Shown here: positions 60,192-62,100 of the stretch, in pieces
Layout of the letters: the number at the start of each line of letters is the position of its first letter
Numbering within the stretch: position 1 is the first letter of the stretch
Assembly (NCBI GenBank): GCA_037892935.1
Contig: JAYXKI010000006.1
Location: forward strand, 868,001 to 932,000
Direction: 5' to 3'
DNA length: 64,000 nt
From: Phlebopus portentosus
Taxonomy: Eukaryota; Basidiomycota; Agaricomycetes; Boletales; Boletinellaceae
Program-made: the position numbers and the translations under genes
The notes under the pieces: model-generated
Seen by the model: only the letters and a program-made list of their open reading frames with translations
Databases searched by the model: none
Told to the model about the DNA's origin: nothing

Positions 60192-62100
60192 CTATTGCGT
60201 CTGGCAATCGGGGTGATTCATGTCGTCACTATCTTCGTCGGTCCACGCCTCCTCGTCATCATCTGCGCCAAACTGGAAAGCAGAAAATGCAGACTGGTTT
60301 AAGAAGTTAGCGCCCGCGGTGAAAGAGCGGGTACGCACGTCGGCGGAGTCAGCCTCTTCAAATTCTGGAGCATCAACCACGGCGGGTCGAGGCTCAAGAT
60401 CTGGTCTCTTCGGTGGTAGCAGTCTTTCCAACGCCTGTTGACAATACACGATGATCCCGAGCGGAGTAAAAAATACACCATCAATATATTCAGACACTAT
60501 TCGCAAGTCATTTAGTTCAGAAGAAAGAACGTACCTCTTTATCGACGCTCAATGCCCAGTTTGTATCAGGGAATTCTACATCGAATATTACATATAGATC
60601 GCCTTTAAGGTCTTGATTCTTGTAGTGCGGCATTCCCTCCCCTCGCAGAACGATAGTATCTTTAGGCTGGATTATTTTGCCCGGCGGAGTGGTTACTTCG
60701 ATCCCACGCCCGTCTAGATGAGTGAGGAGGATGCGAGAGAAGCCGAGCAAGGCTTCAGAAAGCGTAATCTTCACCTTCGCCAGAAGATCATTGCCGGAGC
60801 GCTCGAAAGATGAATGTGGCTGTAACTTTAGTACGAAGATCACGTCGCCGGCGGGAGCATCTGGCTATTCGGGGCAAAGTACAATATTAGAATGTATTTC
60901 CCATTGCTGTCGGAGAGGTCTTTACCAATTGGTCGCCTTCACCTGTGAGAACGATACGCTGCTGGTCCGTCATGCCCTTCTCTATGAAGATCTCCAGACG
61001 CTTCTTTTCTTTGACAGTCTTCTTGCCTTTGCACTTTTTACATCTATGAGGTAGGTTTTAGAAAGAATCTTAGGAGAAAGTGGGCTCGACGGACCGGTCC
61101 TTTTCGCGAAGCTTTTCCCCAGCGCCCTGGCACTCGGTGCAGATTGCTCGAGATTGGCCATATACAGAGTGACCCATCTAAAACGAGTGGCTTAGTATAA
61201 CCAAATACTAAGGCTAGATAAATTCATACAGGGGTCGTTGTGATCGTCCATCCTTTCCCATCGCACTTGATACAGGGCTTGGGCTTCGCATTGCCCCTTG
61301 CTCCGGAACTATTATGAAGACAACCGCGGTGATGGTGAGCGCGAGTGAGGGGAACCGATCCAATGTCCTTACCCGCGGCAAACGCCACAGACGATCTCCT
61401 TCTCCATGTTCATCTTCACATGTTTCCCATTGTAGAGGTCCTCAAGCGCAACATCGTAAGGGATCACAGAATCCTCGCCTCTCCTTGGCCGCGACGTTCG
61501 GGGTCCATCAAACATGAATGAGAACCCACTTCCGGCAAAGAATCCCGCAAATAAATCAGCAGCATCTGGTCCTCCTGAAGGACCTCCATAACCCTTTGCA
61601 AGACCTTCAAGGCCATGCTCGTCATATATTTCTCTAGTTTGAGAATCGGAGAGAATCTCGTATCTGTCAATGAAGATCAAGGTCAGCCAAAGCAACTGAA
61701 AATCGATAGGGCCGCGCACGCAGTCCCAATCTCCTGGAATCTCGTGCTAGCATCAGGATCGTTGATGTTCTATAGACAACATCAGCGAAGAGAAGTATAA
61801 GAATGGGTCGGCCTATAGTACTTTATCCTAATTAAAGGATGAACAATTAATTTGTCAAACTATTTCAGTGGAACGTACAGGGTGATGCTCTTTCGCCTGA
61901 AAAAGATATGAGAACACATCGTCTTAGAAAGAAGCTAAAATTTGACCTTTTTTCGGTACGCTTTTTTAATTTCGTCTGCACGAAAACATGAGAATTTCTC
62001 ATATTCAAATCGAACGATACACCTACCTTCTGTAGCGTTGTGCGGAATTCCAAGCAGATCATAGAGTTCCGTGTCCACGGGCACTATCCCAAGAGAGGTA
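60192..62100 (-). CDS. Type I DnaJ/Hsp40 co-chaperone (YDJ1/XDJ1-like)
   Basis: This J-protein partner of Hsp70 has all type I parts. The J domain is read over several very small exons: VDTELYDLLGIPHNATE, DEIKKAYRKK (29 nt, 61975-61947), AKEHHP (18 nt, 61896-61879), a proposed 6-nt micro-exon DK (61827-61822) and NINDPDASTRFQEIGTA (from 61769). A Gly-rich segment (GLEGLAKGYGGPSGGPDAAD) follows. The zinc-finger region has four CxxC units (CGVCRG, CIKCDGKGW, CTECQGAGE, CKKCKGKK). The substrate-binding domains read QRIVLTGEGDQLPDAPAGDV, ALLGFSRILLTHLDGRGIEV and IVLRGEGMPHYKNQDLKGDL. The C-terminus ends DCQTQ and then TAG at 60192; CQTQ fits a CaaX box with Gln last, as in farnesylated YDJ1-type proteins. 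The start codon is unresolved: the frame before VDTELYDLL lacks an ATG down to a stop near 62140, so a 5' exon lies upstream. Confidence 0.88.

Follow-up and report, generated by a model that had tools for sequence, protein, structure and literature searches.

A 6-nt micro-exon as the probable source of the HPD aspartate in a class A J-protein gene of a mushroom genome

The D-P-N/D-G/A motif of the invertases is catalytic, and the exon that is skipped in the cold from a potato invertase transcript is reportedly the 9-nt mini-exon. In plants, a 9-nt micro-exon contributes to this β-fructosidase motif, and is described as unannotated in rice and maize (PMC8831610), while cold-induced exon skipping has been reported for a potato invertase transcript (PMC8483784). 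In filamentous fungi, a 20-nt micro-exon of Trichoderma virens Xlr2, located inside a functional domain and missing from the JGI model, is described as a glucose switch in an article that mentions tests in fission yeast and in which functional micro-exons of these fungi are termed undescribed before 2024 (PMC11121469). The smallest constitutive exon known before the 1-nt exon of Arabidopsis APC11 was, according to the article on the latter, of 6 nt (PMC4674806).

The locus considered here lies in a window of 64,000 nucleotides, the whole stretch of DNA that was analysed, from a eukaryotic genome of 38.4 Mb in 23 contigs. The splice model derived from the sequence describes a class A J-protein gene of 13 exons on the minus strand, with GT-AG introns throughout; it opens with a start codon divided between two exons (A at 62150, TG at 62083-62082), closes with a stop codon ending at 60192 and encodes 412 aa (Table 1). 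The product carries an N-terminal J domain (PF00226, 92.3 bits, residues 7-68), a CXXCXGXG zinc-finger region (PF00684, 43 bits) and DnaJ_C (PF01556, 128.8 bits), all above the Pfam cut-off; the three features of a class A (type I) J-protein, an HPD J domain, the zinc-finger region and DnaJ_C, are thus present, HPD appearing in the predicted protein only when the micro-exon is included. The C-terminal CQTQ is CaaX-like as judged by eye, in line with the CaaX box of the farnesylated cytosolic class A proteins, and farnesylation is putative. Among solved chains, human DNAJA2 (7zhs) and yeast MAS5 (1nlt) are the best by sequence, and the domain order is the same as in the class A proteins Ydj1 and DNAJA2; set beside these two, which were compared by protein only, the DK codons in a 6-nt exon are a feature of the mushroom gene. 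The closest database protein is P0001 from Sanghuangporus weigelae (97% identity over 100% of the query), which suggests that the window comes from a wood-decay mushroom of this genus of Hymenochaetales or one near to it; the sole match in a DNA search of the gene's own genome was the gene itself, and a plasmid collection searched with the region gave no match.

The evidence points with high probability to a genuine 6-nt coding micro-exon that supplies the Asp-Lys of the HPD loop in a cytosolic-type class A J-protein and is most likely included constitutively. Its place, its frame and its flanking splice sites are seen directly in the sequence: the six bases GATAAA stand between AG and GT, with canonical splice sites on both sides, and furnish the two residues of HHP-DK-N. 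The initial annotation had located the HHP that ends the 18-nt exon (61896-61879) and the NIN that opens the exon at 61769, and both positions are exact; the minus-strand reading likewise bears out GATAAA at 61827-61822 between AG and GT, and the succession of exons of 29, 18 and 6 nt. Its further claim, that direct splicing from 61879 to 61769 would stay in frame and give HPN, agrees with the models, in which skipping removes a GT-AG interval of 109 nt and leaves HHPNIN in a protein of 410 aa. Retention of either intron leads to a stop, at codon 43 for the upstream and at codon 40 for the downstream one.

Table 1. Positions in the window of the J-protein gene features, in the order of transcription
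Feature	Position	Strand	Basis
Terminal base of exon 1, supplying the A of the split ATG	62150..62150	-	splice model, N-terminus of P0001
Intron 1, 66 nt, interrupting the ATG, with branch-like CTAAC upstream of the acceptor	62084..62149	-	splice model
Exon 2, opening with the TG of the split start codon	62027..62083	-	splice model
29-nt exon, DEIKKAYRKK, first base of the D codon from the preceding exon	61947..61975	-	splice model
18-nt exon, AKEHHP, ending with the HP of HPD	61879..61896	-	splice model
Upstream intron, 51 nt, GTACGT...TTAG	61828..61878	-	splice model; length typical of the genome
Probable 6-nt micro-exon, GATAAA, Asp-Lys, D of the HPD motif	61822..61827	-	sequence, chance tests
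Downstream intron, 52 nt, GTACTA...ATAG, donor without G at +5, branch-like CTGAT	61770..61821	-	splice model
50-nt exon, beginning NINDPD	61720..61769	-	splice model
291-nt exon, from the end of the J domain through the linker into the start of DnaJ_C and the zinc-finger region	61373..61663	-	splice model, Pfam
Last six exons and accompanying introns, covering zinc finger, DnaJ_C, acidic tail and CaaX-like CQTQ	60192..61308	-	splice model, Pfam

The nearest analogue of the J-protein micro-exon is the plant invertase mini-exon, since both are tiny, in frame and encode part of a conserved motif; the invertase exon differs in being of plant origin, 9 nt long, in phase 1 and in another protein, and its skipping has been reported in RNA, whereas none was seen among the transcript-like J-protein homologues aligned. 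The Xlr2 exon resembles that of the J-protein in being a small exon within a functional domain of a fungal protein that was missed by gene models, but it is longer, its length is not a multiple of three, it is glucose-dependent by RNA and it belongs to a transcription factor. APC11 illustrates that very small exons can be constitutive, although it is a plant gene and the exon a single nucleotide. Among the matches listed for the open literature on micro-exons with DnaJ/J-domain, Hsp40, fungi, basidiomycete and Agaricomycetes, read as titles and abstract starts, no 6-nt J-protein exon was found described. A 6-nt exon holding the residue by which a universal family of chaperones is defined offers a clear test case for fungal splicing below exon-definition size.

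In dinucleotide-preserving shuffles of the 109-nt interval, the pattern AG/GAYAAR/GT arose anywhere in 17 of 100,000 and with both introns of at least 40 nt in 4 of 100,000, and chance is therefore a poor explanation of GATAAA in this arrangement. The word AGGAYAARGT occurs six times, the micro-exon site among them, in 578,694 strand-bases of the genome (a sample of 289,347 bases in which a 3-kb locus nested in another is counted twice). With the outer ends fixed at the 18-nt exon on one side and the NIN exon on the other, 3 of 16 splice models (GT-AG, introns of at least 35 nt, the unspliced form included) were in frame and free of stops: the micro-exon (162.5 bits), the skip (148.4 bits) and a 91-nt intron from the donor at 61860, which reads HHPVRSTEININD (147.2 bits), these scores coming from a profile of 18 transcript-like homologues that all carry DK and which by construction favours DK.

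The usual intron size assumed at the outset for the 51 and 52 nt is confirmed by the length spectrum of the 289-kb sample, where donors with G at +5, paired with acceptors preceded by a CTRAY word, are in excess at distances of about 45-69 nt, with a peak at 50-59, and where a small rise at 100-119 nt accompanies the donor pattern GTRNGT. On the spectrum for G+5 donors, lengths of 51 and 52 nt are usual, and one of 109 nt is atypical though possible, as one intron of the same gene already measures 100 nt. In the gene, 9 of 12 donors have G at +5, and the micro-exon donor GTACTA has none; donors of its type, with T at +5, give no clear length peak in the 289 kb, nor do GTACTA donors (0.20 versus a background of 0.17 at 50-54 nt), an absence that neither helps nor excludes the micro-exon. 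A self-trained intron finder run on the 289 kb was discarded, as it drifted to a flat length distribution with a median of 87 nt, and only its branch-like words (CTGAT, CTAAC) were kept; a stricter version, which returned 7 and 14 introns where the decoys in each case numbered 5, was likewise replaced by the length spectrum.

Comparison with relatives was based on an alignment of 123 homologues, later extended by 27; the counts cover 149 of these, of which 126 are genome-derived and 23 transcript-like. The latter are contigs from lgn or jgi, about 1.3-5.4 kb long, and were taken as transcripts because their frames are unbroken although the gene is rich in introns; two of them (P0099, P0118) start just before the motif. 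P0220, present in the genome as well as the lgn sources, was assigned to the genome-derived group; the bacterial-looking P0242 was aligned and left uncounted, and the octopus sequence P0240 (subfamily B) did not enter the alignment. HPDK is found in all 23 transcript-like homologues; among the genome-derived ones, DK is present in 94 of 126 and something else in 32, about a quarter (Fisher p = 0.004 against 0 of 23, with rows treated as unrelated). In 13 of these 32 the loss is of two residues exactly at DK (one of the 13, P0059, also having an insert just upstream), and further rows read VK, FQ, YI, HK, VQ and more. The aspartate is kept in two (P0006, DM; P0046, DQ), which may be true variants, and absent from 30, and at least six of the non-DK rows (P0100, P0101, P0218, P0230, P0239, P0241) show wider damage. 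Over the first 103 genome-derived rows, gaps number 8 in the D column and 9 in the K column, against at most 3 in the other columns from 3 to 75; substitutions alone are as frequent in some variable columns (22 rows in column 61, 18 in column 27), so that the gaps are the telling sign at DK.

By taxonomy look-up, the 13 deletion rows include Hymenochaetales, Boletales, Polyporales, Agaricales, Russulales, Sistotremastrales and Hysterangiales; an eighth order, Atheliales, is counted through Athelia psychrophila, which reads FQ itself and is a congener of a deleted row, and the count omits Gelatoporia, Panus and Somion. Since the same two codons are lost in many lines and fixed in the transcript-like rows, a shared 6-nt exon skipped by gene finders is the likeliest explanation, and a micro-exon with the same boundaries, probably an old one, probably occurs across Agaricomycetes, the boundaries being deduced from the failures of relatives' protein annotations. 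P0002 (83% identity), a contig of 1,656 bases with an unbroken 413-aa frame, reads HHPDKNIND, whereas P0001 reads HHPNIND, its deposited model omitting the micro-exon. The tag of the S. weigelae protein, ACEPAI, is a prefix used in an article whose annotation relied on BRAKER3 with the fungus option (PMC12001456). Automatic annotation would be blind to the missing DK because the J-domain score falls so little, to 87.3 bits for a 79-aa piece from 92.3 for the full protein.

That the deposited model is right, with a true HPN protein made through the 109-nt intron and GATAAA a mere coincidence, is very improbable: the 97%-identical P0001 does read this way, but the shuffles, the atypical intron length and the constancy of DK in the transcript-like relatives all speak against it, as does the variety of the annotation errors (missing, VK, FQ, YI, HK, VQ), which is that expected of gene-finder failures. 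The micro-exon as the source of the HPD aspartate, proposed in the initial annotation, is thus well supported by the sequence, the chance tests and the relatives. Deposited fungal models without the HPD aspartate include P0001, P0003, P0012, P0053 and others. Such Asp-less J-protein models are most likely annotation errors, and surveys of "HPD-less" fungal J-proteins would be misled by them.

Recognition across the intron fits short introns. Introns of about 50 nt would thus be recognised one by one (intron definition), and the 6-nt exon would be spared simultaneous binding of U1 and U2AF; whichever intron went first, its removal would leave the six bases as part of a longer exon, with an ordinary intron still to be spliced. 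With the two introns removed one after the other, no steric problem should arise for an exon of 6 nt. As to function, the HPD aspartate contacts an arginine of Hsp70 (D35-R167), and the triple change HPD/AAA is reported in some systems to abolish ATPase stimulation incompletely (PMC13012618). In the predicted skip product, Asn takes the place of Asp and the loop is two residues shorter, and a J domain lacking DK is therefore expected to have lost its ability to stimulate Hsp70, or the greater part of it.

These properties had led to the proposal that skipping might act as an on/off switch, for which no positive evidence emerged: none of the 23 transcript-like homologues lacks DK, in a database clustered at 90% identity and hence liable to conceal minor isoforms. 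With skipped-form J domains as queries, no skipped transcript-like sequence appeared among the rows aligned (best 120 of 372 and best 120 of 296), and the skipped form occurs there in genome-derived annotations only, for which gene-finder error is the simpler explanation. Another 91 rows outside the alignment (P0124-P0214, mostly bacterial) were checked for HPD alone, which lies within the first 200 residues in 90; P0200 is the exception, its motif not being read there. A regulated switch, by which skipping under some condition such as heat would yield an in-frame HPN J-protein that binds clients and is inactive towards Hsp70, is accordingly unlikely, also because the 109-nt skip intron lies beyond the bulk of lengths, despite the small rise at 100-119 nt and the 100-nt intron of the gene. 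Nevertheless, the skip is in frame and is one of just two other open models among the 16, the donor lacking G at +5 is the sole local hint of possible skipping, and both the cold-skipped potato exon and the Trichoderma glucose switch serve as precedents. Loss of HPD in this gene might moreover be tolerated because the genome holds a second class A J-protein gene (C2:1652109-1652774, L038), ending in CAQQ and 43% identical in the matching part, with an unbroken HPD inside one exon (ALKHHPDKGG). Regulated skipping, if it occurred, would constitute a one-step chaperone off-switch; inclusion of the micro-exon is most likely constitutive, with the HPN form at most a leak.

A second peculiarity of the gene concerns its start codon. 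The conserved PVDTELYD has no ATG directly before it, and an acceptor AG stands immediately ahead of TGCCC; two donors (GT at 62149 and GT at 62145) both leave an A, by which ATG is rebuilt, and it is the 62149 junction that agrees with the CRTILIIMPVDTELYD of the S. weigelae protein. The upstream frame shows a TGA, then ten codons and then the split ATG, at which translation should therefore begin. Valine occupies the start-codon place in 16 of 149 homologues (15 genome-derived and the transcript-like P0031), as expected from a retained ...G/TG, a hint that the start codon is likewise divided in other Agaricomycetes; the start differs among homologues, since 18 of the 23 transcript-like rows have Met and the others vary (2 gapped, 1 Ala, 1 Gly, 1 Val). 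An intron inside the start codon is thus apparently conserved in relatives as well. The want of a contiguous ATG before a conserved N-terminus could be taken as a sign of a decaying pseudogene, with the small exons as debris, a reading that is scarcely credible given that the 412-aa frame is complete to its CaaX-like end, that the 97% identity to the S. weigelae protein extends over 100% of the query and that, here as in that relative, the start codon is rebuilt by splicing. It is improbable, too, that mushroom-forming fungi have kept the class A J-protein under two splicing-dependent locks since their early divergence, the split ATG and the exon of the catalytic Asp, so that splicing efficiency would gate both synthesis and Hsp70 coupling and heat-stressed splicing would give an Hsp70-blind HPN holdase.

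Elsewhere in the genome, HPD is unbroken in translation at seven J-domain loci (L023-L029) and at L005, which together with the second class A gene form the subset of the genome's J-domain matches surveyed. J-protein genes of near-equal score occur in pairs (C6:36707 and C15:1164087; C4:200038 and C10:1516865; C6:595568 and C15:1378940). Four Sanghuangporus assemblies are reported at 31.9-36.2 Mb (PMC12001456), and the paired genes, together with the 38.4 Mb of the present genome against that range, may reflect duplication or a leftover second haplotype.
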